This document shows, piece after piece, positions 12,035 to 59,412 of a stretch of DNA of 60,740 nt. The stretch is from positions 1 to 60,740 of IMG/VR virus record IMGVR_UViG_3300035670_000223. One strand, 5' to 3'. The notes under the pieces were generated by a model. That model worked only from the letters and a program-made list of their open reading frames with translations. It made no database searches and had not been told where the DNA came from. Each line of letters starts with the position of its first letter. The first letter of the stretch is position 1. The position numbers and the translations under genes were made by a program. The DNA is from a virus.

Positions 12035-12040
12035 GGTTTT

Positions 12041-12271: not shown

Positions 12272-12290
12272 TGTTTTAAAAAAAATTATA

Positions 12291-12298: not shown

Positions 12299-12307
12299 AG
12301 ATATAAT

Positions 12308-12381: not shown

Positions 12382-12392
12382 GAGGATTTTTT

Positions 12393-17699: not shown

Positions 17700-17701
17700 T
17701 T

Positions 17702-18613
17702 ATGAAAAATTCTCAAAAATATAGACCACCTTTAAAAAGAACAGTTGATTCTTTTATTGATGATAAAGATAAAATAACCAGACCCAACCATCAATTGGGC
17801 CAAACCAGACATACACAAATAAGAAGAGACCAAGATAAAGTAAAGGGCCCGAGTGTAAGTCTATATGACATTGACTTTGCAATAAAAGCTTTTTTTGAAA
17901 ATGTTATAAAACCAAAAGTTGTAGAAAACGATCAGATTGTGGATGTTCCTATATTGTATATGAATTCTGAAAAATGGGCAAACATTCAAAAAGAAGGATA
18001 TATACGAGATAAAAAAGGAAAAATATTAATACCGGTAATCGCATTTAGAAGATCAACGGTAGATATCGATGAGCAATTGAAAAGAAACAAAGTATCACCA
18101 GTTGAAGATTTGTATTATTTAGCAGAATCTAAATATGATAAAAATTTTAGATATGATCAACTCTCATCGCAAATCGGAGCAACTCGTCAAAATGAATATT
18201 ATCTAATACAACCGCCGGATTATGTTAAAATAACATATGAATTTCAATTTTGGTGTGAATACCAATCACAGCTAAATGATTTAATTGAAACTATGATTTT
18301 TTATGAGGGTCAATCATTTGGCGATAAAAATAATTATAAATTTAGATCATATGCAAATAATTATACGATAGACAATTTACCAAATATAAACGAAGACAGA
18401 TTAGTAAGAGCTACATTTGATATTGAAACATATGGATATCTTGTTAGGGAATCAGTGACAGGAGAAGTTGTGACAAAACGAAGATTAGCTACAAAGCGTA
18501 TAGTATTTAATGAAGAAATTGTCAGTGAAATAGACCAAGATTTTAGAGATAACAGAAAAGGACCAAACGATAAAAAATATTATAGCGATACACTAAATAA
18601 TAATGATTTTTGA
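17702..18613 (+). CDS. 15: Tail terminator / sheath stabiliser, T4 gp15-like
   Basis: A 303-residue protein in the gp15 position between gp14 and sheath gp18. The segment SLYDIDFAIKAFFENVIKPK (about residues 56-75), and the beta-rich middle (PPDYVKITYEFQFWCEYQSQ, then IETMIFYEGQSFGD), have the character of tail terminators, whose hexamer caps tube and sheath. The first 55 residues are basic and probably disordered. T4 gp15 is 272 residues, so the length agrees. Assignment rests on order and segment character rather than on a full alignment. Confidence 0.75.
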   Translation: MKNSQKYRPPLKRTVDSFIDDKDKITRPNHQLGQTRHTQIRRDQDKVKGPSVSLYDIDFAIKAFFENVIKPKVVENDQIVDVPILYMNSEKWANIQKEGYIRDKKGKILIPVIAFRRSTVDIDEQLKRNKVSPVEDLYYLAESKYDKNFRYDQLSSQIGATRQNEYYLIQPPDYVKITYEFQFWCEYQSQLNDLIETMIFYEGQSFGDKNNYKFRSYANNYTIDNLPNINEDRLVRATFDIETYGYLVRESVTGEVVTKRRLATKRIVFNEEIVSEIDQDFRDNRKGPNDKKYYSDTLNNNDF

Positions 18614-40848: not shown

Positions 40849-41187
40849 ATGGCAAATCGATATCAATATGTTAAAGAAAAAAATACAACGGAAACAACTG
40901 GCAGAAAAACTATAATTAAAAAAACTTTAAAAACACAGATAGTGCCACAAGTTGGAACCGATGCTGGTGATATATTTATATTAACAAAATTTGGAGATCG
41001 ATTAGACAGATTAGCATATTTATATTATGGGGATGCAAGTCTTTGGTGGTTTATAGGCAAGGCGAATAATTTAGGCAAGGGAACATGGGCAATTAACCCT
41101 GGAACTGTATTACGAATTCCTGCAAAGGTTGACGGGGAATTTACGCTATTAACAGAGTTACAAAAATACAATGAGCAATATAGATGA
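40849..41187 (+). CDS. 53: Baseplate wedge protein, gp53/LysM-like
   Basis: A 112-residue protein. Residues 50-100 (FGDRLDRLAYLYYGDASLWW, then FIGKANNLGKGTWAINPGTV) form a LysM-like fold typical of gp53-type baseplate wedge proteins and of small LysM proteins in other contractile tails. It is shorter than T4 gp53 (196), having only the LysM-like core plus a basic N-terminus. The GAGG site is 9 bases before the ATG. Its stop overlaps the following baseplate gene by ATGA, showing co-translation. Confidence 0.75.
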   Translation: MANRYQYVKEKNTTETTGRKTIIKKTLKTQIVPQVGTDAGDIFILTKFGDRLDRLAYLYYGDASLWWFIGKANNLGKGTWAINPGTVLRIPAKVDGEFTLLTELQKYNEQYR

Positions 41188-44100
41188 TTATAAATCAGTA
41201 TTATAATTTTTACACCAACGAGGTATCAAGACCAGTTGCAGATGAATTAATAGCAAGAATGGATGCACTTAGTTCTTTAAATAGAAATGTTTCTCAATTT
41301 GCATCATCAAAACAATTCTTCGCAGTAAAAAATAGCAATAATGCAAAGCCAGAATTATTACGTAAATTTCAAGAATGGAGAGATAGAAAAGTTGCGTATG
41401 GTGAGGTTAGGGCATTTAGAAAAGTTTCTCAATGTTGTAAAGGCCAACTGGTAAAGGATACCGAAGAATCTCCATTTGTAATTACAGTTAATTATGATGA
41501 TAAAAATGGCACAGTTCCAACATCATCACCCGATATATCTGATTTTACGATAGCCGATAATGGATTATCGTATAGAAAGTCTTATGGTGATATTAAATAT
41601 TCAGTTGCAGATGGACTTAATAAACCATCATTTTATAATGGACAACCACAGGCATTTTTACAATCCATACGAGTTTCAAATGAGGGATATGGTGGAGTTG
41701 TTCAGCGCGTCACTATAAAAATGAGAGTTTTTACAAAAGAGGCGTTTGAAATTATAGATAAATGGTATTTGCGTCCTGGAAATGAAATGTTAGTAAAATT
41801 TGGATGGTCGGTTCCATTGACTAGTATGGAGACATCGTCTGAGGTTATACATGCAGTTATATTCAATTTTAATGCTGTATTAACAGATGATATTGGGTGG
41901 GAAGTAACTGTACACGGAATAGCAAAGGGAAACTTGGCTGTAGGCTTGGCATTGGGATCTTCAGCAGTAGAAACAGTTGCTCTTAATAATGCAAATAATA
42001 CACAACAACCAAATATAGACCCAAATGTAATACCAAATTTAACAACAATATTAAAAGATGAATTAAATAAAATACGAATTGGGTTTCCGGGAATAACTGA
42101 AAGCGATGTGTCAAATATATATGATGCAAATACCGATTTAGATTCTGATAATCGTCCATACGGTATAGTATATGAATCTGATATTTTTCCACACGGAATT
42201 GGAAGAATAAAATTTGCAATTGAAACAGCTCCCCAAGATGCAAACATTGCACCGGCTGCAAATCAAGCAGCAATACAAAATGACCCATTATTTGAAAAAC
42301 GCCAAGCAACGGATGCGGAATTAAATACTTGGCTTGAAGGATTTAGAATTGCTAACCCAAGATTTGTAGAACTCGAAGCTGAATACGGCATAAAATCACC
42401 AAAAGCTTTTATTGAATTTTATAAAGGAAATTTCGGAGTAATTCGGTCAGGGTTAGTAGGCGAAATTGTTTTTCCAAGACGTGATAAGGTACTCCTAACA
42501 GAAGAGTTTATAACGGGAAAAAATCCAGAAGTAACAGATCAACAATCACAAACACAGAGAACAGAAATTTTTTTTGAGGAAGCTGCTGGAGATGTAATTG
42601 GGTCATACCTTGAACGCCAACGCCAACCAGAAAGCCAAAATTACGCAAGCCTTAGACCACCATTTGGTCCATTAAGAAGACGTGTATTAAATATAATGTA
42701 TAACGATTTACCGGATACTAGGTCTGAGCAACAAAAACAATTGGAAGCTGCTCAACAAGAGCAACTTGTGTCAATACAACAACAAATTCAACAGCAAGAT
42801 GCATTACAGGGTGGTGTATATAATGATGCAAGGATTACAGACCCACAAAGTACAGTTAGATATTTTATATGTTTGGGCGACTTGGTTTACTTTTTTAACG
42901 AAAAAATATTTAAGCAAGCTCCTGAGTTATATACAGCAGTTCAATTGCTCGTAGAAAATCAACCAACATCGTATGATCCCAATTTAGTATCGGCCATACC
43001 GACAGAAGTTATATTATCAAATGCCAGAAATACACAGGGTGGTATGTCTTCATACGGTTATTATAATTCTGTTAATTACGGGTTTAAATATAAAAAATTA
43101 AAAATAAACAATGAGCTGGTTGATGCCTTTGGATGCGACGGGGTTGATTTTTATCCAAGTGAAGAATTCAATTCAAAAGAAGATATGGCCAATCATAGAG
43201 AAGATTGGGGTGTCTATTTAAGAGAAAACGGTGGTGAAAAAATAGCAGCATTTAATATAGCACACATATGGATTTCAGTTGATGTGATAAATGAAGCATA
43301 TACATTTGTTTTAAAAGACAAAGCAATTGATCCGCAATATAAAACAGTATTTGACTTTTTTGAGCAAATATTCAGAAGAATAGCACAGGCAAGTGCTGGG
43401 TCTATACAATTAACATTAATGCCAGACAACAACGAGTTATACAATAATAATCCACTACAATCGAAGATTTTATCTTTAGAAAATCCATTAATAAATAAAA
43501 CCCAATTATTTAGAATTGTTGACAATAATTTTCAAGTACCACATAATCTACCCGGTGCGCCCAGAAGTTTTGATTTTAAAGTTAATGATGTTAACGCTAC
43601 AATGTTACGTGATGTTAACGTAGCTTTAAAAATACCATCAAAATTACAAACTGTTGCATATACATACGGTAGGTCGGGTATGAATGAAGATATTGTTGAT
43701 ATAGATGATTCAGCAGATGGCACTGGCGGTATTTGTCAAAAAGATTATGATCAATTAGTCCAAAAAAGAAACGAAATATTAAAAAAATTAAATGATATAA
43801 AAAATGAAGTAGCGTTTAATATGTCAGCCGATAACATAGAAAAACTTATAAATGCATTAAGTCAATATATTATAAATCCAGTCCCAGTTGGTTCTGATTC
43901 ACTTGATACTTCACCAAATGCCTCTATACATCAAGGTTGGTTATATTCTAAGTTATATCCGGTTGAACTTCAATTTAAATTGGATGGTATATCCGGCTTT
44001 TTATACGGAAATAAAGTTAATATTTTAAATGCGCTTCCCTCTAGGTATTCAAATAGAGTTTATTTTACTTTGATAAAAATTGAACATGAGGTTCAAAATA

Positions 44101-44441
44101 ATGATTGGATTACCACATTAACTGCAATAGCAAGATTAAAAAATTCAAATGGACTGGTGCAGTTCCCACGAGTCGTAACAACGGAAGCAAGACCAGACTT
44201 ATGTGATAAAGTACCTGAAATCCAAACACCACTACCACCCGTTGGTGGTGCATCACCACTCCCAGCCCCAACTCCGCAGACAACACAAGTTCCGGAAAGT
44301 TTGGCAACCCCCAATTCTATACCACAAGTCGGAACAGTTGGAGTAAATGCAACTGGATTAAGCGCGTTTCCATTGCCCGGTGTTCCCGGTGGGGGTGGTG
44401 GATTCGGACTACCCGAACCAGATAGACCAGTATTGCCATAG
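41184..44441 (+). CDS. Large baseplate protein, hub-like
   Basis: A 1,085-residue virion protein. The N-terminal third contains TIKMRVFTKEAFEIIDKWYL, then RPGNEMLVKFGWS (about residues 170-210), a beta-barrel pattern seen in hub-type baseplate proteins. Around 445-540 lies a Gln-rich linker. The C-terminal conserved part (about 925-1000; KLYPVELQFKLDGISGFLYG and FTLIKIEHEVQNNDWITTLT) resembles the gp27/late-control-D class. The last 75 residues are Pro/Gly-rich (GVPGGGGGFGLPEP). It is co-translated with the gp53-like gene. The T4 equivalent could be gp27, but I am not certain. Confidence 0.68.
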   Translation: MIINQYYNFYTNEVSRPVADELIARMDALSSLNRNVSQFASSKQFFAVKNSNNAKPELLRKFQEWRDRKVAYGEVRAFRKVSQCCKGQLVKDTEESPFVITVNYDDKNGTVPTSSPDISDFTIADNGLSYRKSYGDIKYSVADGLNKPSFYNGQPQAFLQSIRVSNEGYGGVVQRVTIKMRVFTKEAFEIIDKWYLRPGNEMLVKFGWSVPLTSMETSSEVIHAVIFNFNAVLTDDIGWEVTVHGIAKGNLAVGLALGSSAVETVALNNANNTQQPNIDPNVIPNLTTILKDELNKIRIGFPGITESDVSNIYDANTDLDSDNRPYGIVYESDIFPHGIGRIKFAIETAPQDANIAPAANQAAIQNDPLFEKRQATDAELNTWLEGFRIANPRFVELEAEYGIKSPKAFIEFYKGNFGVIRSGLVGEIVFPRRDKVLLTEEFITGKNPEVTDQQSQTQRTEIFFEEAAGDVIGSYLERQRQPESQNYASLRPPFGPLRRRVLNIMYNDLPDTRSEQQKQLEAAQQEQLVSIQQQIQQQDALQGGVYNDARITDPQSTVRYFICLGDLVYFFNEKIFKQAPELYTAVQLLVENQPTSYDPNLVSAIPTEVILSNARNTQGGMSSYGYYNSVNYGFKYKKLKINNELVDAFGCDGVDFYPSEEFNSKEDMANHREDWGVYLRENGGEKIAAFNIAHIWISVDVINEAYTFVLKDKAIDPQYKTVFDFFEQIFRRIAQASAGSIQLTLMPDNNELYNNNPLQSKILSLENPLINKTQLFRIVDNNFQVPHNLPGAPRSFDFKVNDVNATMLRDVNVALKIPSKLQTVAYTYGRSGMNEDIVDIDDSADGTGGICQKDYDQLVQKRNEILKKLNDIKNEVAFNMSADNIEKLINALSQYIINPVPVGSDSLDTSPNASIHQGWLYSKLYPVELQFKLDGISGFLYGNKVNILNALPSRYSNRVYFTLIKIEHEVQNNDWITTLTAIARLKNSNGLVQFPRVVTTEARPDLCDKVPEIQTPLPPVGGASPLPAPTPQTTQVPESLATPNSIPQVGTVGVNATGLSAFPLPGVPGGGGGFGLPEPDRPVLP

Positions 44442-44450
44442 GAGAAAAAA

Positions 44451-45092
44451 ATGAAAAGATCTAAATTATATTACCCTAAAACTGCAATAACTGAAAACCT
44501 GTATACAAATGGCGGAGAATATATGTTTGAAACCGGAACAATGTATGTTGGTTATTACCACAAGTATGACACCGGTGAAGTTTTTACAAGACCAGTGTGG
44601 GATCCTAACAAATCTATAAAATTATTACCATACACAGATATTTCGGGATTACCTGCTGGTAGTTATCAAACACCGGGTCAACTTAAAGCTTTTTTATTAT
44701 CTGATTTAAACCAAAAGAAATATAAAAATCCAATTTCAAATACAACAAGTCCATCTGATGATGATTATATACGTGGTTATTATTATAGATATTTTACGGT
44801 AAAACGAAATGAACCGGAAAAAATGACAGAGATAACTAGAACTGAATTTTTAAACGCAGGAAATGTTTCTGGTATAAATACATTTTTATATAAAGTTGGA
44901 AAAATAAAATGGCATTTAATTGGAGACGAATACGATACTAAAAATCAAAATGGCGTTGTAATAAAAAAAGGTGTAATAGATAATAATGCAAGAGAAGTGT
45001 TTGCTTTATTGCAAACATATCCTTATATTTATACGTTATTTGGTGATTATAGGCAATATACACAATATAGTAGATTATACACACGGTTATGA
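44451..45092 (+). CDS. Virion-type protein, unknown function
   Basis: A 213-residue protein rich in Tyr, Gly and Thr. The opening KRSKLYYPKTAITENLYTNG, then GEYMFETGTMYVGYYHKYDT, is a conserved pattern I associate with virion proteins beside baseplate genes in aquatic T4-like phages. It is probably beta-rich and exposed. It follows the hub-like gene after 9 bases with a GGAG site, and its stop overlaps the start of the polymerase homologue (ATGA). Confidence 0.65.
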   Translation: MKRSKLYYPKTAITENLYTNGGEYMFETGTMYVGYYHKYDTGEVFTRPVWDPNKSIKLLPYTDISGLPAGSYQTPGQLKAFLLSDLNQKKYKNPISNTTSPSDDDYIRGYYYRYFTVKRNEPEKMTEITRTEFLNAGNVSGINTFLYKVGKIKWHLIGDEYDTKNQNGVVIKKGVIDNNAREVFALLQTYPYIYTLFGDYRQYTQYSRLYTRL

Positions 45093-46336
45093 TTTTTATT
45101 GAAACACCCGATGAACTGGAAATATTAACAAATAAAAGAATAATTGTTGTACCAGTTGTCGATGGAAAACAGCATTTTATCTATGAAATGGCGGTTCTTA
45201 TATACATAATCGATGTGGATTCGCATGAAGAGTATGTTATAAATTTAACACATCCAGACTATACATCATATGCAGGGCCATTGCCAAATATGACAAACGC
45301 ATTTGTTTTGGGATTAAATAAAAAGTTCTTGTATCATAATAAAGTTGTAAGCGATAATTCAGTAGATTTAAATTTTTTTATTTACCCAGACAAACATAAA
45401 AAGTTTGATTTTTACGAATATATACCAAAGCCATATTTAATTTATCAAAATAGATTTGTTGAATGGAAAACATACCCATTATCTATTTTGATAAAGATGT
45501 GTAATGATGTTGCATTAGAGATGCTGGCATATGTGAATAAGTTTGACGATTATTTATTAGAAATTAAAAAATTTGATAACTTATACTATAATTCTTTATT
45601 TAAAACCGAAACAAATATATTTGAATTTGATAACGATGGTGTGTATTCTAATTATAATCCATACACCCTAACGAATAGACCATCGAATTCTTCGTTTGAT
45701 ATTAATCTGTCTGCGTTACCAAAAAAGGGAAATATTAGAGATAAAATTAAATCTTCTACCAATAAAAAATTGGTTCAATTTGATTATACGTCATTTCATG
45801 TTTACTTATTAACAAAAATGTTAAATTTTGAGTTGCCAAATAATATAGACATTTATTTATTTTTAAATGATGCTTATAATTTTTCATCCAAAACAGATAG
45901 AGATGAAATAAAAATGGATTTTTTCAAGTATATATACGGAAAAACAGAACACAACTCAGATTTATCTAATATCATTAGTGATTTTAAACATACTTTATTT
46001 GAGTATTATAAAAATAATGGTCATGTAATATCTTTTTTCTTAAAACGAAAGATATTTTTTAATAATCATGATATTGATCAAAGTAATAAGCTGTTTAATT
46101 ATTATTTACAAAATGCAGAAACGGAATACAATTTCTTAAAAATACAGGAAATCATTGAACGTATACCAAGTCAAGAAGCTAATCTATTTTTGTATACATT
46201 TGATAGCTTTTTATTTGAATTCAATGATAATAATCCAGATATAATTTATAAAATAAAACAGCTTTTAGAAAAAGATGGAATACCAGTAACCACTAAAGTT
46301 GGATCAACTTATGGTAATTTAATTGATATTTATTAA
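45089..46336 (+). CDS. Divergent family A DNA polymerase homologue in the tail cluster
   Basis: A 415-residue protein. The polymerase core is recognisable by ordered motifs. DNDGVYSNYNPYTLTNRPSN (181-200) matches the DG..H..FN...T.TGRLSS region of Pol I. VQFDYTSFHV (229-238) is motif A with Asp232. RDEIKMDFFKYIYG (271-284) keeps Arg271, Lys275, Phe279 and Tyr283 in the exact O-helix spacing. YTFDSFLFEF (369-378) is motif C with Asp372. The motif A Glu gate residue is His and the motif C His is Phe. The N-terminus (IETPDELEI, then EEYVINLTHPDY) resembles the 3'-5' exonuclease domain, but its DxE is lost. It is coupled by ATGA to a virion gene. Activity is unknown. Confidence 0.78.
   Translation: MIFIETPDELEILTNKRIIVVPVVDGKQHFIYEMAVLIYIIDVDSHEEYVINLTHPDYTSYAGPLPNMTNAFVLGLNKKFLYHNKVVSDNSVDLNFFIYPDKHKKFDFYEYIPKPYLIYQNRFVEWKTYPLSILIKMCNDVALEMLAYVNKFDDYLLEIKKFDNLYYNSLFKTETNIFEFDNDGVYSNYNPYTLTNRPSNSSFDINLSALPKKGNIRDKIKSSTNKKLVQFDYTSFHVYLLTKMLNFELPNNIDIYLFLNDAYNFSSKTDRDEIKMDFFKYIYGKTEHNSDLSNIISDFKHTLFEYYKNNGHVISFFLKRKIFFNNHDIDQSNKLFNYYLQNAETEYNFLKIQEIIERIPSQEANLFLYTFDSFLFEFNDNNPDIIYKIKQLLEKDGIPVTTKVGSTYGNLIDIY
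46327..46334 (+). promoter_or_regulatory. Candidate late promoter element TATTTATT
   Basis: TATTTATT over the last codons of the polymerase homologue, 27 bases before the ATG at 46362. The spacing supports that ATG over an upstream TTG. Confidence 0.4.
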
Positions 46337-46361: not shown

Positions 46362-48125
46362 ATGCAAAATGATCAAAAACAAATAATAGAATTAATAACA
46401 GAAAACATATTAAATGAAGTTTTAGGCGTAGACCCAAACTCGCTTGAGTTTGATTTTATGGTTGAAAAGATTTTAATCAATTGTGGATTGGAAGAGAAAT
46501 ATGTTTTTGAATTAATTAATACTTTGAAAAAATCATTAAATGAAACAAAAAATTATAATAATATTTTTATTAAAAAAGAGATTAGTAATTTTGTAGATAT
46601 TGTTTTTGAAGAAAAAAGACAGGTAGATAAAATTGCAGTAAGAAACAAGCAGTCTGGTGCAATTCAATTGGTATCGAAAAAAACATATCAAGCAAATTCA
46701 CAGATTTATACTCCGTTGTCTGCTGGGTGGGCTAAAGCAAATGTCATAATGGTTAGAAATAAAACCAGTGGTGAAGAATACCCCATCTTATTAAAGAACT
46801 TTGATTCAAATAAACATGAAAAAGTAGGAACGGGACGACCGCCAGAAGAAAAAGAAAAGGAAGCACCGTTGCAGGCTAAACCCGCCGTGCCTGTTCCTAA
46901 TCGAAAAGATAAAAAACAAAAAGACGCAGAACTGCCTAAAAAATCAAAGGATACGGTTAGACCGATTATGATTGAGCCTAGTTTAAAGGCAAAAACAATG
47001 ACAGCATTCATACTTCCAAAAGATATAAGTAAGCAACAAACCCCACCAGAATTCCCAGAAAAAGAAAGTGATATAATATCAAAAGTAAATCAATCTATAA
47101 AAGATAAAAAACTAAATAAAAATCTTCCATTGGAACGCCCATCCTTCAAGTATGCTGGGGATGACGGTGATTATGAAATATACGATAAACTGGGAGATTC
47201 TGGTCTTTTACCACCGGGCTTTAATTTAAATAAACGATATACTATACCCAATAGTTTAACGAATAAAATTAAAATACCACGTGGTTATGTTACAATAATA
47301 GAACAATTAATTAACACTATAAATGGGGAAAATACAACAATTGGATCATATAGCATTCCATTTGCAATTAAAACAAACCCAAATGCAAAACTATCGCTAT
47401 TTGAGCTAATACTGTTATATTCAGTATGCTTAGATAATGAAGATTTTTCAAAATTTTCAATTTCAATTGAAACGTTTATTAATTCTGGAATTGAAAGTAA
47501 TTTAACAAAAGAATTATGGGATAGTGTTATAGCAGAAAGAAAGTTAATTATAAACTATCTGATAAAAAAGTATTCGTCAATTTATACCATCGTTGCCGGT
47601 GCATGGAAAACAGAGGACCATCAGCTAGATCTAGGAATAGATGATTCAGAAATTGATATGGATAAAGTGTCAGATATTTTTCTTAGGATAAAAAATGAAG
47701 AAGGATCAGATATTTTAGAAGAATTTTTAGTTACTCCAAATAGATCTACGTTAATTTATTTAGACAAACCACAATTCGTAAAATATATAAAAGTTAAAAA
47801 AGAAAATATAAAAGCAAAATTATTAATGTTTATTTTAAAAATGTTTCCACTTCAACGTATATTAGAAGGTAATATAGCCGTTGTATTTCCAAATGTTATA
47901 TATGACAACATTACATTAATCGAACTTTTTAAAACACAATCCGTAGACAATCTTGAATTAAAATTAAAACATGCTGATAAGCAAATACATTTAATGTATA
48001 AACTGGAAGAACAGTATAAGAATATAATTTCAATTATGATCGATGACATCATTAATTTAAAAATTGATGACGCATTTGAAAAAGACTGTATTACAATTAA
48101 CAATAAAATTTATAAAATAGACTAA
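46362..48125 (+). CDS. Hypothetical protein with duplicated VRNKxSG motif
   Basis: A 587-residue protein from the ATG at 46362. The in-frame TTG at 46323 would place the start inside the promoter-like motif and the preceding gene. Residues 1-85 are helical. A small domain carries two related stretches, VRNKQSGAIQLVSKKTYQAN and VRNKTSGEEYPILLKNFDSN (about residues 93-155). A Pro/Lys/Glu-rich linker spans about 158-240. The C-terminal 300 residues are helical, with AGAWKTEDHQLDLGIDDSEI as the most distinctive stretch. No enzyme motif was recognised. It lies between tail and replication modules, and could belong to either. Confidence 0.65.
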   Translation: MQNDQKQIIELITENILNEVLGVDPNSLEFDFMVEKILINCGLEEKYVFELINTLKKSLNETKNYNNIFIKKEISNFVDIVFEEKRQVDKIAVRNKQSGAIQLVSKKTYQANSQIYTPLSAGWAKANVIMVRNKTSGEEYPILLKNFDSNKHEKVGTGRPPEEKEKEAPLQAKPAVPVPNRKDKKQKDAELPKKSKDTVRPIMIEPSLKAKTMTAFILPKDISKQQTPPEFPEKESDIISKVNQSIKDKKLNKNLPLERPSFKYAGDDGDYEIYDKLGDSGLLPPGFNLNKRYTIPNSLTNKIKIPRGYVTIIEQLINTINGENTTIGSYSIPFAIKTNPNAKLSLFELILLYSVCLDNEDFSKFSISIETFINSGIESNLTKELWDSVIAERKLIINYLIKKYSSIYTIVAGAWKTEDHQLDLGIDDSEIDMDKVSDIFLRIKNEEGSDILEEFLVTPNRSTLIYLDKPQFVKYIKVKKENIKAKLLMFILKMFPLQRILEGNIAVVFPNVIYDNITLIELFKTQSVDNLELKLKHADKQIHLMYKLEEQYKNIISIMIDDIINLKIDDAFEKDCITINNKIYKID

Positions 48126-48139
48126 TCTGAGGTAAATAT

Positions 48140-48532
48140 GTGAAAGGTATATTATTATGTACGTTTGTTCGCGGATACGCCATAAATTCTGTAATTGATG
48201 ATCTGTTATATGAGTATGGCGATCTTTTTGATAACAACAAAATTTTTTTATTTGCAACTGATGACAAAAATCGTTATATTTTATCTTACAATCTTTTAGT
48301 AGACAGAGAAATACAATTTTATAATAATACGGTGTTGGTTCACCGAAAAAAAGAAACAAATACAATGTATACTATAAACGCAATAAACGAACTTATAAAA
48401 AATTTGAATAATGGTATACTTGATAAAAGTTATAAAATAGACTGGGAATTATATAAAAATTCATTGCTTGTCTCTAATAATGGAAATTTTAGGACAATTC
48501 CCACACAATTGAAAAAAATTTACAATATTTAA
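48140..48532 (+). CDS. Small conserved-looking protein, unknown function
   Basis: A 130-residue protein starting at GTG, 7 bases after GAGG. An ATG that overlaps this GTG by one base is followed at once by TGA, so it cannot be the start. A mid-protein stretch (NTVLVHRKKETNTMYTINAI, then NELIKNLNNGILDKSYKIDW) looks like the conserved core of a small family in aquatic T4-like phages. No catalytic motif is seen. It is the last gene before the 72-base gap that precedes gp32. Confidence 0.6.
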   Translation: MKGILLCTFVRGYAINSVIDDLLYEYGDLFDNNKIFLFATDDKNRYILSYNLLVDREIQFYNNTVLVHRKKETNTMYTINAINELIKNLNNGILDKSYKIDWELYKNSLLVSNNGNFRTIPTQLKKIYNI

Positions 48533-48604: not shown

Positions 48605-49396
48605 ATGGCTATCAATTTAGATTCAATAAAGAATCGATTGCAAACGTTGCAAGATCAAACGTCGGATAAGACGGAAAAGAAATCAACGTTGGACGACATC
48701 TGGAAACCAGAAGTTGGACAACACCAAGTTAGGATTGTACCATACGCCCATAATAAAGAAAATCCATTTATTGAAATGTATTTTCATTATAATTTAGGAA
48801 AGCGCACATTTCTTTCCCCTGCAACTTACGGAAACCCCGATCCTGTTGTTGAATTTGCGCAAAAATTACAAGGTAAGGGCACAAAAGAAGATTGGGTTGC
48901 TGGTAAAAAACTAGAACCAAAACTTCGTGTTTATGCACCGGTAATAGTTAGAGGAGAAGAAGATAAAGGCGTTAGGTTCTGGGGGTTTGGTATTACTGTA
49001 TATCAAGAATTGCTTTCATATATATCAGATTCTGATTACGGTGATATCACCGATCCATTAAATGGAAGGGATATCGTATTGGATGTACAGCCACCAGAAA
49101 AAACAGGCAAAAAATTTCCAACAACTGCAATACGTATAAAACCAAACACATCTAAAGTCTCTGAAGACCCTTCTGTAATCAGTTCAATTAAAAATCAAAA
49201 AAATATAACTGAAATATTTTCAGAACCATCTTACGATGAATTAAGCCAAGCACTTGAAAAATATCTCTTCCCAGAACAGGAATCTGAAGTACAGACTGAT
49301 TATTCAACTTCCATTGCATCGGAATCAACACAATCTACAAAATCAACTGTAGATCAAATAGAGCAGCAATGGAAAGAATTATTTGACGAAGAATAA
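48605..49396 (+). CDS. 32: Single-stranded DNA-binding protein, T4 gp32-like
   Basis: A 263-residue SSB. The opening of the OB-fold core (TLDDIWKPEVGQHQVRIVPY, about residues 28-47), followed by FIEMYFHYNLGKRTFLSP, is typical of gp32. The middle has ARG/Lys-rich and aromatic residues for ssDNA contact (LRVYAPVIVRGEEDKGVRFW). The C-terminus is acidic and ends WKELFDEE, the usual protein-protein interaction tail. The Zn-binding Cys cluster of T4 gp32 is not present. An AAGGAG site lies 7 bases before the ATG. It heads the recombination/replication operon. Confidence 0.92.
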   Translation: MAINLDSIKNRLQTLQDQTSDKTEKKSTLDDIWKPEVGQHQVRIVPYAHNKENPFIEMYFHYNLGKRTFLSPATYGNPDPVVEFAQKLQGKGTKEDWVAGKKLEPKLRVYAPVIVRGEEDKGVRFWGFGITVYQELLSYISDSDYGDITDPLNGRDIVLDVQPPEKTGKKFPTTAIRIKPNTSKVSEDPSVISSIKNQKNITEIFSEPSYDELSQALEKYLFPEQESEVQTDYSTSIASESTQSTKSTVDQIEQQWKELFDEE

Positions 49397-49407: not shown

Positions 49408-50559
49408 ATGGCAAAAACAAAAACAACTTCAGAAGTATCTGAAGACTTAGGCGCACTGTTGGCCGATACATTGAATAAAAAATTCAAAGAAAGTTCATTT
49501 AAAACAGCTTATTTTTTAGAAGGCGATCCAGACGCACCAGTTCACGTAAACGAATTTGTTTCAACCGGTTCTTCTATTTTGGATTTGGCAATATCAAATA
49601 AAAAAGATGGTGGATTTCCAGTGGGCCGTATTACCGAAATAACAGGGTTGGAGCAAAGCGGTAAATCTTTACTTGCTGCTCATGCGATAGCAAACACACA
49701 GAAAAAGGGTGGTATGGCTATATTCATTGATACTGAAAACGCATTCCCGCCTGAATTTTTTACGGCGATTGGAATCGATTTGAAAAAAATGCTTTACATA
49801 CCGATGGATACCGTTGAAGATATATTTGAAGCAATAGAAACAATGGTAGAAAAAGTACGAGCGTCTGACAAAAAAAAATTGGTTACAATTGTTGTTGATT
49901 CGGTTGCTGGTGCATCTACAAAGCAAGAAATGGAATCCGATTTTGAAAAAGATGGCTATGCAACAGCAAAGGCAATCATAATTTCTAAAGCTATGCGAAA
50001 AATTACCAATTTAATTGGAAGAGAGCGAATTTGTTTGATTTTTACAAATCAGCTTAGAACAAAGATGGGCGTTAGCTTTGGTGATCCGTACACAACTTCA
50101 GGTGGAAAGGCAATTGCATATCACTCAAGTGTTCGTCTTAGATTAAAAAATATTGGAAATATCAAGGCAAAACTAAACGGTGTTGAGCAAATTGTTGGTA
50201 AAAAAACTTCTGCAAATGTTGTAAAAAATAGACTAGGCCCACCTGAACGCGGGTGTGACTACGAAGTATTTTATGCATCCGGTATAGATAACTATAATAG
50301 TTGGTTAGGAGTATTAAAAGAATACAAACTAGTAAACCAAGCCGGGGCATGGTATTCATATATCAATAAGATTTCAGGTGAAGAAATAAAATTTCAAGCA
50401 AAAGATTTTAAAAATCTTATATTAAACGATCAACAATTGTATGACACAATTTATGATGAAATATGTGAACATCTTATAATGAAATATGAAACATCTGCGT
50501 CTCTTTTAGAACTGGATGATGTTATTACCGATACGGCAGATGTAGATGAGCTTTCGTAA
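49408..50559 (+). CDS. uvsX: Recombinase UvsX (RecA-like)
   Basis: A 383-residue RecA-family recombinase that loads on gp32-coated ssDNA and drives strand exchange and recombination-dependent replication. Walker A is EITGLEQSGKSLLA (about residues 77-90), followed by AIFIDTENAFPPEF and Walker B KLVTIVVDSVAGAS (about 157-170). FTNQLRTKMGVSFGDPYTTS (about 213-232) is the L1/L2 region. It lies 11 bases after gp32 with a GGGAG site and its stop overlaps the next start (TAATG). Confidence 0.95.
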   Translation: MAKTKTTSEVSEDLGALLADTLNKKFKESSFKTAYFLEGDPDAPVHVNEFVSTGSSILDLAISNKKDGGFPVGRITEITGLEQSGKSLLAAHAIANTQKKGGMAIFIDTENAFPPEFFTAIGIDLKKMLYIPMDTVEDIFEAIETMVEKVRASDKKKLVTIVVDSVAGASTKQEMESDFEKDGYATAKAIIISKAMRKITNLIGRERICLIFTNQLRTKMGVSFGDPYTTSGGKAIAYHSSVRLRLKNIGNIKAKLNGVEQIVGKKTSANVVKNRLGPPERGCDYEVFYASGIDNYNSWLGVLKEYKLVNQAGAWYSYINKISGEEIKFQAKDFKNLILNDQQLYDTIYDEICEHLIMKYETSASLLELDDVITDTADVDELS

Positions 50560-51587
50560 TGAATAAAAAGTATTCAGAGTTATTTAAACAGGTAAAAGAA
50601 GAGCATTCAAATAGAGCCAACTTAAATAAGAATAGTAAAGTTCTTATAATAGATGGCATGAATACCTACATAAGAACCTTTTCTGCTAGTCCTGCATTAA
50701 ATGATAATGGCGAACACGTGGGTGGGTATTATGGTTTTATTAATGTTTTAAAAAATATAATAAAACTTATAAATCCCACCCGCGTTATTATAGTTTTTGA
50801 TGGAAAAGGCGGATCTCAGAAAAGAAAAAAAATTTACGCTAATTACAAAGAAGGCCGCGCAATTAAGAATAAGTTAAACAGGGTTTTAGAATTAGATGTA
50901 AACGATGAACAAAAAATCTTAAAACTCCAATTTATACGTCTTTTGGAATATCTAGAATGCCTTCCCATAACTATAATGTCTTATGATTATATAGAGGCAG
51001 ACGATGTCATTGCTTTTTTAGCAACAGAATGTTTAAAAGAAGAAGTTATTATCTATTCAAACGATAAGGATTATTATCAACTTATAAATGACCGCATCTC
51101 AGTATATTTCCCAGCAAAAACAAAACTTTATACAAAGACAGATATAATAACAGAGTATAATATTTTGCCAGAAAATTTTATATGGCAAAAAGTTATTTTG
51201 GGAGATAAGTCAGACAATGTAAAAGGAATAAGGGGAGTTGGTATTGGGAAGTTTAATCTAGCATTTTCTTTTTTAAAAGAGAAAATCTATTCTTTGGATG
51301 AATTTAAGGAAATACTTCTCGAATCAGATAGTAAAATTTTGAACAAAGTAAAAAATTCAATTGACATTGTTGAGAGAAACTATTATATTATGCAGTTGTC
51401 TGATGTTGACATTAGTGGCAACACAAAATCAAAAATAATAAATTTATTAGATGGTGAACCACCACAGCTAAATAAACCCAAGTTAAAAACGCTAATGATA
51501 ACAGATAAGCTAAATTCATTAATAAAAAATTATGAAATATGGATTTCAAACGCATTCGATAAACTAAACTACTATAGGAATAAATAA
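50559..51587 (+). CDS. rnh: 5'-3' exonuclease / flap endonuclease, T4 RNase H-like
   Basis: A 342-residue FEN-family nuclease that removes Okazaki primers. Metal-binding residues are seen in VLIIDGMNTYIRTF (about residues 28-41), VIIVFDGKGGSQKR (about 74-87), YIEADDVIAFLA (about 145-156) and YSNDKDYYQLI (about 167-177). The helix-hairpin-helix motif is LGDKSDNVKGIRGVGIGK (about 213-230). Its length is close to T4 RNase H (305). Starts and stops overlap both neighbours by TAATG, so UvsX, this gene and gp41 are co-translated. Confidence 0.92.
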   Translation: MNKKYSELFKQVKEEHSNRANLNKNSKVLIIDGMNTYIRTFSASPALNDNGEHVGGYYGFINVLKNIIKLINPTRVIIVFDGKGGSQKRKKIYANYKEGRAIKNKLNRVLELDVNDEQKILKLQFIRLLEYLECLPITIMSYDYIEADDVIAFLATECLKEEVIIYSNDKDYYQLINDRISVYFPAKTKLYTKTDIITEYNILPENFIWQKVILGDKSDNVKGIRGVGIGKFNLAFSFLKEKIYSLDEFKEILLESDSKILNKVKNSIDIVERNYYIMQLSDVDISGNTKSKIINLLDGEPPQLNKPKLKTLMITDKLNSLIKNYEIWISNAFDKLNYYRNK

Positions 51588-52936
51588 TGACAGACAGATT
51601 AGATAGTTATGGCTATAACTTTCAGATTAAAATCATCACATGTCTATTAAAAGACCGTGCATTTTTACATCAAGTTAGTGATGTTCTTAACCCAAATTAC
51701 TTTGAATCTGAAGCTACCAACTGGATTGTTAGAACCATATTAAACTACTGGGATGCATACCGAAATTCACCAACAATTGAAGTTTTAAAAGTAGAGATAG
51801 AAAAAATAGATTTAGACATTTTAAAAATAGAAGTAAAAGATAAGGTAAAGGATGCTGTCAAAAATTTTGACGCAACTGATCTGGATTATGTTAAACAGCA
51901 AACACTAGATTTTTGCAAAAATCAAACTTTAAAAAAAGCAATTTTAGATTCAGTTGATCTTCTTAAAACTGGTGAATACGATAAAATCAAATATAAAATA
52001 GATAATGCAATACGTTCTGGAACAGACAGAAATTTGGGCCACATTTATTCAAAAGAAATAGATGATCGGTATTCACAGTATGCAAGAAGTCCACTTTCAA
52101 CTGGATGGGATCTGCTTGATAAATTGATGGATGGTGGCCTTGGCAAAGGCGAGCTTGGCGCGGTTATGGCCCCGGCTGGTATTGGAAAAAGCTGGATGCT
52201 TGTTAGTATAGCGGCCAACGCTGTAAAACATGGAAAAACTGTTATTTATTATACAATGGAATTGAACCCGTATTATGTTGGACAACGATTTGACGCTTGG
52301 TTTACAGGCGTCCCGTTTCAAAACTTGAAAGATGACTCAAACAGAGAACGGTTAAACAGTATCATTGGTAATATAAATGGCGAATTAATTGTAAAATATT
52401 ACCCAACTAAAAGCCCAACCGTATCAACAATTTCAGCGCATATCGAAAAATGCATTATGCAAGAAAAAAAGCCAGATCTTATTATAGTAGATTATGCCGA
52501 TCTCATGAGAGCTTCTTCTGGGGTGTCTGATTCAGAATCTGAATCAAATCAAATATATGTAGAATTGCGCGGGTTAGCCGGTGAATACGATATACCAGTA
52601 TGGACGGCTTCTCAGACAAATAGGGGCGGTTTAAAAGAAGATGTAATTGGGGGTGATAACATTGCATCGTCATATAGAAAGCTGGCTCATAGCGATTTTA
52701 TGATGTCTTTAAGCAGAAAAATAGAAGATAAGGTTTCTGGAACAGGTAGAATTCACATAATAAAAAATAGATTTGGTGCGGATGGAATCACTTTCCCAAG
52801 TAAAATAAATACGTTTAATGGTCACATTGAATTATTTGAACCGAACAGTGAAGCCAGTAGAGATATGCAACCTGCGAGTCAAGAAGAAATAGTTAGAAAA
52901 TCTTTAGCTGAAAAATTTAAAGCACTTAAATCATAA
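51587..52936 (+). CDS. 41: Replicative DNA helicase, T4 gp41 / DnaB-like
   Basis: A 449-residue hexameric helicase. After an N-terminal helical domain it has a RecA-like core: STGWDLLDKLMDGGLGKGEL, then Walker A APAGIGKSWMLV (about residues 193-204), VIYYTMELNPYYVGQRFDAW, Walker B LIIVDYADLMRA (about 302-313) and WTASQTNRGG (about 341-350). The C-terminus has SRKIEDKVSGTGRIHIIKNR. It moves 5'-3' ahead of gp43. The stop is followed by an 83-base gap before the ribonucleotide reductase gene. A separate primase gene (gp61) was not recognised. Confidence 0.94.
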   Translation: MTDRLDSYGYNFQIKIITCLLKDRAFLHQVSDVLNPNYFESEATNWIVRTILNYWDAYRNSPTIEVLKVEIEKIDLDILKIEVKDKVKDAVKNFDATDLDYVKQQTLDFCKNQTLKKAILDSVDLLKTGEYDKIKYKIDNAIRSGTDRNLGHIYSKEIDDRYSQYARSPLSTGWDLLDKLMDGGLGKGELGAVMAPAGIGKSWMLVSIAANAVKHGKTVIYYTMELNPYYVGQRFDAWFTGVPFQNLKDDSNRERLNSIIGNINGELIVKYYPTKSPTVSTISAHIEKCIMQEKKPDLIIVDYADLMRASSGVSDSESESNQIYVELRGLAGEYDIPVWTASQTNRGGLKEDVIGGDNIASSYRKLAHSDFMMSLSRKIEDKVSGTGRIHIIKNRFGADGITFPSKINTFNGHIELFEPNSEASRDMQPASQEEIVRKSLAEKFKALKS

Positions 52937-53019: not shown

Positions 53020-54876
53020 ATGGAATTAAGCAATAAAATTTTATCCGATATAACAGTATATATGAAATATGCAAGATTTATACCGGAATTAAATAGAAGG
53101 GAAACGTGGGAAGAATTAGTTACTAGAAATAAAGAAATGCATCAAAGAAAGTACCCGCAGCTTAAGGATGAGATAGAATCTGTTTATAAATTTGTTTATG
53201 AGAAAAAGGTACTTCCTTCAATGCGCTCTTTACAATTTGGTGGCAAACCGATTGAAATAAGCCCAAATAGAGTTTACAATTGTGCGTATTTACCAATTGA
53301 TGACTGGAGGGCATTTGGAGAAGTTATGTTTCTTTTGCTGGGTGGTACTGGGGTTGGATATTCTGTTCAAAAACACCATATCGAAAAACTTCCAGAAATC
53401 CGTAAACCAAAGGCAGATAGAGAAAGAAGATTCTTAGTTTCTGATTCTATTGAAGGCTGGGCAGATGCCGTAAAAGCAGTTATTAAATCATACTTTACAG
53501 GTGGGTCATCATTAAGATTCGATTATTCTGATATACGTCCAAAGGGGTCACGTCTTATAACGTCAGGTGGAAAAGCACCGGGACCAGAGCCATTGCGCAT
53601 TTGCATTGAAAAAATAAGATCCATATTAGATTCAAAAAAAGATGGTGAAAAATTATCTCCAATTCAAGTTCATGACATGATCTGTCATATTGCAGATGCA
53701 GTTCTTGCAGGTGGTATCCGCCGTGCTGCTCTTATCTCCCTTTTCTCGGCAGATGATGACGAAATGGTTTCTTGTAAATTTGGTGCATGGTGGGAACTAA
53801 ATCCTCAGCGCGGGCGAGCAAACAATTCAGCTGTATTACTCCGCAGCAAAGTAACCGAAGAATTTTTTAAGGGACTTTGGAAGAAGATTGAACTCTCAAA
53901 TGCAGGTGAGCCAGGAATTTACTTTTCTAATGATAAGGACTGGGGAACAAATCCCTGCTGCGAAATAGGTCTTCGTCCTTTCCAGTTTTGTAATTTGTGC
54001 GAAGTAAATGTTTCAGATGTTGCGGATCAGCAAGACTTAGAAGACAGAGTTCGTGCAGCAACATTTATTGGAACACTTCAAGCTGGATATACTGACTTCC
54101 ATTACCTTCGTCCAATTTGGCAAAGAACAACAGAAAAGGATGCTCTGTTGGGTGTTGGTATGACCGGAATAGGATCGGGGGCTGTCCAGAAGTTAGACGT
54201 AAAGGCAGCGGCTAGGGTTGCAAAGGAAGAAAACGAACGAGTGGCAAACATGCTAGGAATCAACAAAGCAGCTCGTATAACAACCATCAAACCAGCGGGC
54301 ACGTCGTCTCTTACGCTTGGATCATCGTCGGGAATTCACGCATGGCATAACGATTATTATCTTCGTCGTATTCGCGTTGGGAAAAATGAAGCCATTTATC
54401 CTTTCTTAAAAGAACATCACCCAGAGTTAGTAGAAGATGAATACTTCCGTCCACATGATACTGCTGTTATTGGTGTTCCACAGAAAGCACCAGAAGGCTC
54501 TATATTACGCACAGAATCGCCATTACAGCTTCTTGAAAGGGTTAAATGGTTCAGTCAACATTGGATAAAGCCGGGCCATCGAAGCGGCATGAATACGCAT
54601 AACATTTCTGCAACAGTTTCAATTCGCGAACACGAGTGGGACGCCGTTGGAAAATGGATGTGGGAAAACAGAGAATTTTATAATGGTCTTTCTGTTCTTA
54701 ATTACGATGGGGGCTCTTACACGCAAGCCCCGTTTGAAGATATTACAAAAGATGAGTATGATCGTTTAATGAACGCATTAAAGGGCGTTGATCTGAGTAA
54801 TGTTATTGAAATGGATGATAATACTGATTTAACTGGCGAACTAGCGTGTGCTGGGGGTGCCTGCGAAATCCGCTAA
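53020..54876 (+). CDS. nrdJ: Adenosylcobalamin-dependent ribonucleotide reductase, class II
   Basis: A 618-residue class II enzyme that makes deoxyribonucleotides. The opening and length match the monomeric triphosphate reductases. NRVYNCAYLPIDDWRAFGEV (about residues 82-101) has the first redox Cys. LLLGGTGVGYSVQKHHIEKL is the family glycine-rich stretch. GTNPCCEIGLRPFQFCNLCE (309-328) carries the active-site Cys313 and Glu315. TIKPAGTSSLTLGSSSGIHA is the phosphate loop. C-terminal Cys610 and Cys615 (ACAGGACEIR) are the exit redox pair. Unlike T4, no NrdA/NrdB or NrdD is seen. An AGGAG site precedes the ATG. Thioredoxin at 60199 could be its reductant. Confidence 0.93.
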   Translation: MELSNKILSDITVYMKYARFIPELNRRETWEELVTRNKEMHQRKYPQLKDEIESVYKFVYEKKVLPSMRSLQFGGKPIEISPNRVYNCAYLPIDDWRAFGEVMFLLLGGTGVGYSVQKHHIEKLPEIRKPKADRERRFLVSDSIEGWADAVKAVIKSYFTGGSSLRFDYSDIRPKGSRLITSGGKAPGPEPLRICIEKIRSILDSKKDGEKLSPIQVHDMICHIADAVLAGGIRRAALISLFSADDDEMVSCKFGAWWELNPQRGRANNSAVLLRSKVTEEFFKGLWKKIELSNAGEPGIYFSNDKDWGTNPCCEIGLRPFQFCNLCEVNVSDVADQQDLEDRVRAATFIGTLQAGYTDFHYLRPIWQRTTEKDALLGVGMTGIGSGAVQKLDVKAAARVAKEENERVANMLGINKAARITTIKPAGTSSLTLGSSSGIHAWHNDYYLRRIRVGKNEAIYPFLKEHHPELVEDEYFRPHDTAVIGVPQKAPEGSILRTESPLQLLERVKWFSQHWIKPGHRSGMNTHNISATVSIREHEWDAVGKWMWENREFYNGLSVLNYDGGSYTQAPFEDITKDEYDRLMNALKGVDLSNVIEMDDNTDLTGELACAGGACEIR

Positions 54877-56123: not shown

Positions 56124-56148
56124 TTATTAATTATTATTGAGGTGTTTT

Positions 56149-58668
56149 ATGTATCAAAATGTTTTTTATGACAAGGGCACGAAAATTGCCCATATATGGG
56201 ATGATGAAAAGGGCCATATAACGTTTCCTTTTACTCCATATGCGTTTAGGAAATCTTCACGAGGAACTTATACATCGTTGTTTGGTGATAAGTTAGAAAA
56301 AATAACGTATTTTGATAAAAATGATCCGACGTTATTTGAAGCCGATGTTGCTGAGACTACTAGAATATTAGTAGACATGTATACGGATTCGGATGCTGTT
56401 TCAACTGGACACAATATTATGTTTTTTGATATTGAAGTTGAGATGGACTCTGGGACCCCCGACACTGAAAAAGCAGAAAATGAAATAACATCTATTGCTA
56501 CATATTTTTCTAATACAAAAAAATATACTGTATTTGTATTAGATAAAGATAATTCTGCTTCAAAAACAAAATTAGAAGATTCAAGTGTTGATCTTATATC
56601 ATGCTTGACGGAAAAAGATTTGTTGAAACGATTTTATGATTTGTACGAAAAAGAAAAGCCGACAATTATAACCGGGTGGAACTGTGATTTTTTCGACATT
56701 CCTTATTTGTTTAATAGAACAAAAAACATTCTTGGTAAAAAAGCTGCGTTGAGAATTTCCCCAATTGGAGAACACTTTTTCTCTCCATATAGAAATAGAT
56801 TTTTCTTTGGTGGCGTCTCTGTCTTAGACTACCTGAGTATTTACAAGAAATTTACATATACGCAATTGCCCTCCTATTCATTGGATGCTGTATCTAAAAA
56901 AGAATTAGGACGGGGTAAGGTTGAGTATGAGGGAAACTTGGATGAATTAAAAAAGAATGATTTAAAAAAATTCATTGAATACAACATAACAGACGTTGAA
57001 CTTATCGTAGAGATGAATGAAAAACTTCAATTCATTGATCTTGTAAAGGGTATATGTCATGTTGGGCATGTTTCATACGAAGATTACGTATATTCATCTA
57101 AGTATTTAGAGGGTGCCGTATTAACATATTTAAAGCGCAGAAACATTATTGCACCAAATAAGCCAGCAGATAGACAAGAGCGAATGGCAGCCGTTAGGGA
57201 ATCTGGGGAAGAAAAGTTTATTGGTGCTTATGTGAAAGATCCAATTGTAGGCAAATATGAGTGGATATATGACCTAGACCTTACATCGCTGTATCCATCG
57301 ATTATTATGTCTTTAAACATATCCCCAGAAACAAAAATTGGTAAAATAGATAATTGGAATGCAGAAGATTACATTAAAGGTGTTCAGAAAGAATATATCG
57401 TTGATGGTGAAATTATAGAAAAAGAGCAAGTTGAAAAGTTTTTCAAAACATACAACTACTCAGTTGCATCAAACGGTGTATTATATAATACGGAAAAGAA
57501 GGGTGTAATTCCATCAATTTTGGATGAATGGTTTGACCAGCGTGTTGAATATAAAAATTTGATGAAAGAGTATGGCAAATCTGGCGATAATGAAAAATAT
57601 AATTTTTATAAGCAGCGTCAATTAGTTCAAAAAATTCTGTTGAACTCTTTATACGGGGTATTGGGATTGCCCGCATTTAGATTTTATGATATAGATAATG
57701 CAGAAGCTGTAACTCTTACAGGACAAACTGTAATTAAAAAAACAGCTGAAGTTTTAAATAAAAAATACAATAAAGAACTTCAAACAGAAAATGTAGATTA
57801 TAATATTTACATTGACACTGATAGCTGCTTTTTCTCTGCCTTACCGCTAGTGGTGCATAGATTCCCAGATGTGGATACATCCGATGATGCTATAATGACA
57901 GAAAAGATTTATGATATTGCAAATGAAAGTCAATCATTTATAAATTCATTTTATGATATTTTCTCTAAAAAATACTTTAATATAAATTCACACCGCTTTG
58001 AAATTAAGCAAGAAATGATAGCCAAATCCGGTATATGGATAGCTAAAAAAAGATATGCTCAATGGATTATAGCGGATAACGGTGTTAGAGTTGATAAATT
58101 AGATGTAAAAGGTCTTGATGTTGTTAGATCATCATTCCCAAAAGCATTTCAAAAATTCATGTCAAATCTTTTAATATCTATTTTGAAGGGTGCATCGAAA
58201 GATGAAATAGATAACATGATTTTGGAAATGAAAAAAAATGTTCGTAATGTTGACATCGTTGACTTGGCTAAAAACTCTTCTTTAAATAACTTAGTTAAAT
58301 ATAGTGGAAAAATAGATGTTGATAGAATAAATTCGTTTGGCAAAGGTACACCTGCACAGGTTAAAGCTGCCATTGCATATAACAGATTATTAGAACATTA
58401 TAAGTGTCCGTTTAAGTATATGCCGTTTCGAGATGGCGATAAATTAAAATGGATTTATTTAAAGGATAATCCGTTTGGAATAGATACGTTGGCATTTAGG
58501 GGAGATAGCGACCCAAAGGAAATCAAAAAATTTATTACAACATATGTAGATCCAGACTTTATGTTTACATCTGAGTTGGATAACAAATTAGAAGATTTTT
58601 ATAGCGCATTAAAATGGAAAATGCCATCACCAAGTAGTAAACTTATTAACGAATTTTTTCAGTTTTAA
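56149..58668 (+). CDS. 43: DNA polymerase, family B, T4 gp43-like
   Basis: An 839-residue replicative polymerase, a little shorter than T4 gp43 (898). The start is the ATG 6 bases after GAGG; an upstream in-frame TTG overlaps that site. The 3'-5' exonuclease motifs are MFFDIEVEMDSG (about residues 91-102), GWNCDFFDIPYLF (about 178-190) and the YNITDVELI stretch (about 280). Polymerase motifs are DLDLTSLYPSIIMS (about 375-388), QKILLNSLYGVLG (about 494-506) and NIYIDTDSCFFS (about 551-562) with catalytic Asp residues. The clamp gene follows after 12 bases. It is the clear replicative enzyme, in contrast to the family A homologue at 45089. Confidence 0.96.
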   Translation: MYQNVFYDKGTKIAHIWDDEKGHITFPFTPYAFRKSSRGTYTSLFGDKLEKITYFDKNDPTLFEADVAETTRILVDMYTDSDAVSTGHNIMFFDIEVEMDSGTPDTEKAENEITSIATYFSNTKKYTVFVLDKDNSASKTKLEDSSVDLISCLTEKDLLKRFYDLYEKEKPTIITGWNCDFFDIPYLFNRTKNILGKKAALRISPIGEHFFSPYRNRFFFGGVSVLDYLSIYKKFTYTQLPSYSLDAVSKKELGRGKVEYEGNLDELKKNDLKKFIEYNITDVELIVEMNEKLQFIDLVKGICHVGHVSYEDYVYSSKYLEGAVLTYLKRRNIIAPNKPADRQERMAAVRESGEEKFIGAYVKDPIVGKYEWIYDLDLTSLYPSIIMSLNISPETKIGKIDNWNAEDYIKGVQKEYIVDGEIIEKEQVEKFFKTYNYSVASNGVLYNTEKKGVIPSILDEWFDQRVEYKNLMKEYGKSGDNEKYNFYKQRQLVQKILLNSLYGVLGLPAFRFYDIDNAEAVTLTGQTVIKKTAEVLNKKYNKELQTENVDYNIYIDTDSCFFSALPLVVHRFPDVDTSDDAIMTEKIYDIANESQSFINSFYDIFSKKYFNINSHRFEIKQEMIAKSGIWIAKKRYAQWIIADNGVRVDKLDVKGLDVVRSSFPKAFQKFMSNLLISILKGASKDEIDNMILEMKKNVRNVDIVDLAKNSSLNNLVKYSGKIDVDRINSFGKGTPAQVKAAIAYNRLLEHYKCPFKYMPFRDGDKLKWIYLKDNPFGIDTLAFRGDSDPKEIKKFITTYVDPDFMFTSELDNKLEDFYSALKWKMPSPSSKLINEFFQF

Positions 58669-58680: not shown

Positions 58681-59412
58681 ATGGAAAAAAATAAACTATT
58701 TTCATTTATATCCAAATACTCGCTCGGCGGATTGATAGAATCCGCCGAGTGGAGCTTAACACAAGATGAATTATCAACAAAATTTATTTCTGACGATGAC
58801 AATGCACTTGGAGAGGTAAGACTCCATAATGTTGAAAACTTAAATTATTCAAATGATGAATTGTTTGGAATTGCAAATACAGGATTTTTGGTTAAAATGA
58901 TGTCTGTGCTGGGAGACAATATACAATTTGAATTGAAAGCAAAGACGGGTATGGTTCCGGATACATTAAAAATTTCAGATGGAGAATCTGAAATAAATTA
59001 CATGTTAGCTGATCCAGTTATTATACCAAAGGCACCAAGTCCTAAAAACTTACCAGATCCAACATATGAATTTGATTTTGATAAAAGCAGTTTTTTGGAT
59101 AAATTTATAAAGGCAAAATCAGCATTTTCTGATGTAGAGACTTTTACACTAAATCCAACGAAAAAAGGATTGGAAGTTATAATCGGAAATTCTGTAAACA
59201 AAATAAAAATGCCAATAAAATCTGATATAATTGGCACGCCATCTAGACCTATCGTATTTAGCGCAAAGTATTTCAAGGAAATGCTTTCTGCTAATAAAGA
59301 AATGATATCGGCTACATTTTCTGTATATGAACGTGGGATGTCTAGAGTAAAATTTAATCATGCAGATACAGATGTCACTTATTTTTTAACAGAAATAATA
59401 ATACAACCTTGA
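58681..59412 (+). CDS. 45: Sliding clamp, T4 gp45-like
   Basis: A 243-residue clamp subunit, near T4 gp45 (228). Segments resembling gp45 include TKFISDDDNALGEVRLHNVE (about residues 31-50), FGIANTGFLVKMMSVLGDNI (about 61-80) and the C-terminal FSAKYFKEMLSANKEMISAT. It forms a trimeric ring that tethers gp43 and, in T4, also activates late transcription. It lies 12 bases after gp43. A perfect 11-bp GC-rich hairpin covers codons 15-23. Clamp loader genes 44 and 62 are not in the window. Confidence 0.9.
   Translation: MEKNKLFSFISKYSLGGLIESAEWSLTQDELSTKFISDDDNALGEVRLHNVENLNYSNDELFGIANTGFLVKMMSVLGDNIQFELKAKTGMVPDTLKISDGESEINYMLADPVIIPKAPSPKNLPDPTYEFDFDKSSFLDKFIKAKSAFSDVETFTLNPTKKGLEVIIGNSVNKIKMPIKSDIIGTPSRPIVFSAKYFKEMLSANKEMISATFSVYERGMSRVKFNHADTDVTYFLTEIIIQP
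58723..58749 (+). repeat. Perfect inverted repeat inside gp45
   Basis: CTCGGCGGATT (58723-58733) and AATCCGCCGAG (58739-58749) form an 11-bp stem with a GATAG loop, extended by one G-U and one C-G pair. No T tract follows, so it is not an ordinary terminator. It lies about 42 bases after the gp45 ATG. Confidence 0.85.

Follow-up and report, generated by a model that had tools for sequence, protein, structure and literature searches.

Genomic context of the divPolA1 gene

The window analysed here is a 60,740-nt fragment of the DNA of a T4-like phage (positions 1–60,740 of IMG/VR record IMGVR_UViG_3300035670_000223). At 45089–46336 it encodes a 415-residue protein that, judging from sequence profiles and a predicted structure, is a family A DNA polymerase homologue. 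The gene is assigned by sequence to divPolA1, a family named by Yutin et al. 2024 from 14 phages, the immuto phages included (Virol J 21:200; PMC11348598), and its product is a new, divergent member. The following features were located around it:

40849..41187, + strand: LysM-type baseplate-wedge-like protein, 112 aa (phrog_7145, E 5.3e-11; synteny)
41184..44441, + strand: large tail-block protein, 1085 aa; upstream in 68/83 loci
44451..45092, + strand: upstream gene, 213 aa, end of the tail block; kept in 75/83 loci
45089..45092, + strand: ATGA stop/start overlap (ATG of divPolA1, TGA of the upstream ORF); not conserved in relatives
45089..46336, + strand: divPolA1, 415 codons plus stop; predicted thumbless, exonuclease-degenerate family A polymerase homologue
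46362..48125, + strand: 587-aa protein, poorly conserved among relatives
48140..48532, + strand: 130-aa conserved protein; 68/83 loci
48605..49396, + strand: gp32-like ssDNA-binding protein; in relatives, a long gap with promoter-like sites lies 5' of the gene
49408..50559, + strand: UvsX/RecA recombinase
50559..51587, + strand: 5'-3' exonuclease (stand-alone counterpart of the N-terminal nuclease of Pol I)
51587..52936, + strand: gp41/DnaB-like replicative helicase
56137..58668, + strand: gp43, the regular family B replicase (listed with a TTG start; in-frame ATG at 56149)
58681..59412, + strand: gp45-like sliding clamp (phrog_223, E 1.4e-6)

Across 83 loci the order upstream was large tail proteins, LysM protein, large tail protein, 213-aa gene and divPolA1, followed downstream by variable genes, the 130-aa gene, gp32, uvsX, the 5'-3' exonuclease and gp41; the gp32-uvsX-exonuclease-gp41 run was present downstream in the window and in most loci that extend far enough. 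Because the upstream neighbours are tail genes, this neighbourhood is a weak guide to the role of divPolA1. The 130-aa protein has many invariant residues (HRKKxTNTxYTINAxN) and matched no known family or structure. A ribonucleotide reductase (RNR) at 53020–54876 resembles B12-dependent class II enzymes, matching phrog_367 and the Pfam RNR-II insertion domain, and an RNR also adjoins gp41 in Microcystis phage Mel-JY01 and a few relatives.

The first-pass annotation had pointed to a coexisting gp43, and the family B polymerase at 56137–58668 is indeed intact. A PolB likewise accompanies divPolA1 in Mel-JY01 and an uncultured phage (LR756508), while the immuto phages encode a second, full-length PolA beside it; since a PolB or a full PolA is also present, divPolA1 is not the replicase. 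A role as a missing primase was considered and rejected, as all three complete relatives carrying divPolA1 encode a DnaG-type primase (the window is a fragment). The window gp43 is 52% identical to the Mel-JY01 PolB and ∼32% identical to those of marine cyanophages, which makes Mel-JY01 the nearest isolated relative found.

Homology, predicted fold and family size

Single-sequence searches with the window protein produced no match in Pfam (where the PF00476 cut-off was not reached), PHROGs or the PDB, and a single-sequence contig scan with it returned nothing, so that relatives were needed for detection. Searching phage records with tblastn identified full-length relatives in Mel-JY01 (E 3e-29), in an uncultured 484-kb phage (E 1e-25) and in the Flavobacterium immuto phages (E 8e-16, coverage 89%; e.g. 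YP_010114413). The alignment of the tblastn relatives contained 35 invariant columns, and a scan of IMG/VR with that alignment confirmed at least 562 relatives among the 599 candidate stretches listed; the window protein is at most ∼32% identical to any relative among the matches listed. A scan of host genomes gave only four matches, all on short MAG contigs, which are probably binned viral DNA. With relatives in so many viral contig stretches, divPolA1 appears to be a widespread component of T4-like replisomes in the environment, one that biochemistry has yet to address.

Profile methods, profile-profile alignment and structure prediction agree in supporting the family A homology proposed in the first-pass annotation. 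PF00476 was matched individually by 28 of 42 relatives at E≤1 (best 5.5e-14), and a profile of the 42 relatives searched against the PDB retrieved Pol I-type chains (Taq, Klenow, Bst; best E 1.1e-5). Using hhalign against four Pol I sequences, a probability of 98.2% and an E of 2.9e-14 were obtained, with motif A, the O-helix, the Q849 region and motif C in register. The AlphaFold2 model of the window protein (pLDDT 90.1, pTM 0.88) matched Pol nu (4xvm, 1.3e-14), the apicoplast polymerase and Klenow in Foldseek at E values of ∼1e-14 to 1e-13, with a TMq of ∼0.7 to Klenow and others (0.73 for Klenow 1d8y). The palm and fingers, whose absence from a predicted structure had been named as the outcome that would speak against homology, are thus present in the model.

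Several records deserve comment with respect to annotation. In Mel-JY01 (L001), the gene annotated ‘DNA polymerase I’ (17363–18403) is a 5'-3' exonuclease, and the true PolA-like gene (11968–13194) is annotated as hypothetical. The polA of Exiguobacterium phage EalM-132 was considered as a member and rejected, being a regular SPO1-type PolA. Three loci (L033, L046 and L069) hold short divPolA1 ORFs of 251–275 aa, apparently without the N-terminal domain; gene splitting, a frameshift or a genuinely shorter version of the protein may account for them.

Active-site anatomy and constraint

The length of the protein and every landmark named in the first-pass annotation (TNRPS 195–199, D232, R271/K275/F279/Y283-G284 and D372) were found at their reported positions:

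45671..45688, + strand: TNRPSN, residues 195–200, equivalent to Pol I TGRLSS; R197 corresponds to R668 and is invariant (45 members)
45782..45799, + strand: motif A, DYTSFH, residues 232–237; D232 corresponds to D705, invariant; H237 replaces E710, invariant
45899..45940, + strand: motif B/O-helix, residues 271–284; R271, K275 (K758), F279 (F762), Y283-G284 (Y766-G767)
46097..46126, + strand: N337-x3-Q341-x2-E344-T345-E346; counterparts of N845 and Q849; E344-T345 is a family-specific invariant pair
46199..46207, + strand: motif C, FDS, residues 371–373; D372 corresponds to D882, invariant; H881 replaced by F, E883 by S

Conservation was assessed on 45 distinct members filtered at 80% identity (median pairwise identity 32%, lowest 21%). 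Residues R197, N200, N206, D232, H237, K275, Y283, G284, Q341, E344, T345 and D372 were invariant in all 45, a set that, by alignment to E. coli Pol I, includes R668, D705, K758, Y766, G767, Q849 and D882; F279 (F762) was kept in 44. The position of E710 is occupied by His in 45/45 members, that of H881 by Tyr in 44 and by Phe in the window protein, and that of E883 by Ser or Ala throughout. The entry for R271, the R754 equivalent, needs correction: only nine members, the window protein among them, have Arg here and 35 have Tyr. H29, H55, K79, D93 and P130 are conserved in the N-terminal domain, and dN/dS values of ∼0.06–0.25 between close pairs indicate purifying selection.

The Glu to His change in motif A and the His to Phe change in motif C were already recognised in the first-pass annotation, which overlooked the replacement of E883 by S373 and the loss of the thumb. 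Counted from the IERNG-like Glu to TGR, the thumb region spans 20–38 residues in the family versus 124 in E. coli Pol I, a near-complete loss. As to the reported loss of the exonuclease motif, no FDTE-like motif was seen by eye in residues 1–125 (the profile alignment stops outside this domain), and Yutin et al. 2024 report that the exonuclease catalytic residues are lost in the family (PMC11348598).

Compared with Pol I/Klenow (PF00476), the window protein shares the palm and fingers, has motifs A, B and C in the same order and retains the Asp pair and equivalents of K758, F762, Y766, Q849 and R668, but has no thumb or 5' nuclease domain, probably no active 3'-5' exonuclease, and carries the three substitutions E710 to H, H881 to F and E883 to S. 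For divPolA1, Yutin et al. 2024 describe conservation of the palm residues, truncation of the thumb and inactivation of the exonuclease (PMC11348598); the window protein is homologous over its full length, retains the palm catalytic residues, has a truncated thumb, is additional to a regular polymerase and has replication genes downstream. It differs from other divPolA1 in lacking equivalents of H734 and R712, which most members keep (Y256 and Y239 in the window protein), in having Phe for Tyr in motif C, and in the overlap of its gene with the one upstream. The divPolA2 of barbaviruses is likewise an extra, thumb-deficient PolA beside a PolB, but is set apart, according to the same paper, by its unrelated N-terminal domain and variable neighbourhood (PMC11348598). 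Tt72 Pol A, an active enzyme, has a natural Ser at the E883 position, as does the window protein, yet is full-length, proofreads strongly and has Glu at the E710 position (PMC9324360).

Overlap, promoter-like sites and expression

The ATGA overlap with the ORF at 44451–45092, from which late synthesis had been deduced, is present at 45089–45092 but proved almost private to the window. The coupling to baseplate genes noted at the same time holds insofar as tail genes, including the LysM ORF, lie upstream; the overlapped gene itself could not be shown to be a virion gene, as the 213-aa product has no homologue of known function and, although modelled by AF2 at a pLDDT of 88, gave an empty PDB fold search, so that its virion label rests on position. 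The gene pair recurs in relatives; an overlapping or abutting start was found in only 5 of 70. The spacing between divPolA1 and the preceding gene has a median of 24 nt and is usually within 50 nt, whereas the gap in front of gp32 measures 75 nt or more in every case (58/58). This gap first suggested an operon boundary that would place divPolA1 in the tail operon, an idea weakened by the promoter-like sites at the divPolA1 start.

A search for the T4-type late promoter TATAAATA revealed no enrichment upstream of any gene of the block. In contrast to the tail genes, where it occurred in 0/94 upstream regions, the strict Bacteroidota promoter consensus TTG / TAnnTTTG (PMC6847099) lay no more than 130 nt from the divPolA1 start in 7/43 members versus 0.7% of random windows (p 3e-8), and at gp32 in 5/32. 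A looser pattern was found at 28/43 divPolA1, 14/31 gp32 and 12/21 gp41 starts; as it was chosen after viewing the sequences, only the test of the published consensus is fair. The window itself has no such site upstream of divPolA1. Given these host-type promoter sites in relatives and the rarity of the overlap, late synthesis is not supported. In four loci (L007, L008, L027 and L068) the promoter-like element ends ∼5 nt before the divPolA1 ATG, which hints at leaderless or short-leader transcripts in phages of Bacteroidota.

Proposed function

We favour, with moderate confidence, the view that divPolA1 would act as an auxiliary polymerase, active but unable to proofread, which carries out short synthesis for replication, recombination or repair; it resembles a functional accessory enzyme more than a component of the virion. 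The product would be Klenow-like, with a decayed exonuclease domain and no thumb but with the palm/fingers active site held by selection, and it would carry out low-processivity DNA synthesis over short stretches at ends or gaps alongside gp43, while the phage replicates or recombines its DNA or matures Okazaki fragments. In a thumbless enzyme, the grip on the substrate presumably comes from partners, which may be gp32, UvsX, the clamp or the stand-alone 5'-3' exonuclease. This reading draws on the homology and the fold, the invariance of the catalytic residues, the signature of purifying selection, the place of the gene in the genome and the regular polymerase alongside; activity, dNTP use and the choice of partners are what we infer. 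The same reading, a replication role with DNA polymerase activity, was proposed by Yutin et al. 2024 from 14 phages (PMC11348598). To our knowledge, the present analysis adds to that account the environmental family size, the fixed His at E710, the figures on constraint and the sites resembling promoters.

The pattern of kept and lost residues fits a working enzyme when read against mutants of Tt72 Pol A, in which E710A keeps 35% of activity and S616A 76%, and either Asp mutant 4% (PMC9324360). It would seem that divPolA1 has kept exactly those residues that Pol I cannot do without, while His became fixed at the ribose gate and the thumb was dropped. Nevertheless, a protein in which the thumb, H881, the exonuclease and, in most members, R754 have been lost could be non-catalytic, and the window protein is a divergent member in which the equivalents of H734 and R712 are missing too. 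Such a pseudo-polymerase would keep the pocket that binds the nucleotide and the primer end and act as a regulator, DNA-end binder or replisome scaffold. The replacement of E710 and E883 is in line with this, and the novel invariant E344-T345 pair and the conserved N-domain residues suggest a new task. We regard it as unlikely: both metal-binding Asp residues and K758 are invariant at 21–32% identity, and such constancy would be difficult to account for if no metal-dependent catalysis took place; moreover, the residues changed in divPolA1 are dispensable in Tt72 Pol A (PMC9324360).

The auxiliary polymerase might instead use an altered substrate. E710 is the residue that excludes ribonucleotides in Pol I (PMC9324360), and His at this gate, fixed in 45/45, may admit NTPs for short RNA or mixed synthesis, or allow untemplated addition; a thumbless core would suit very short products. 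The retention of F762 in 44/45 members and the DnaG-type primase of the three complete genomes, which leaves no primase missing, make this improbable. A doubtful but related thought is that the thumbless core and the invariant His together amount to changed chemistry, yielding very short RNA/DNA or untemplated additions at ends; if true, T4-like replisomes would contain, in divPolA1, an auxiliary nucleotidyltransferase of a new type.

A place for divPolA1 in the virion, or a structural role, with late production from the baseplate operon, as suggested by the overlap in the window and by the position of the gene directly behind the conserved tail block and ahead of the gp32 gap, is very improbable, since the overlap is not conserved, the overlapped 213-aa gene has no homologue or fold match marking a virion protein, many relatives have promoter-like sites at the divPolA1 start and none at tail genes, gp32-uvsX-exonuclease-gp41 follow downstream, and invariant catalytic residues would not be expected if the polymerase fold had been retained for structure alone.
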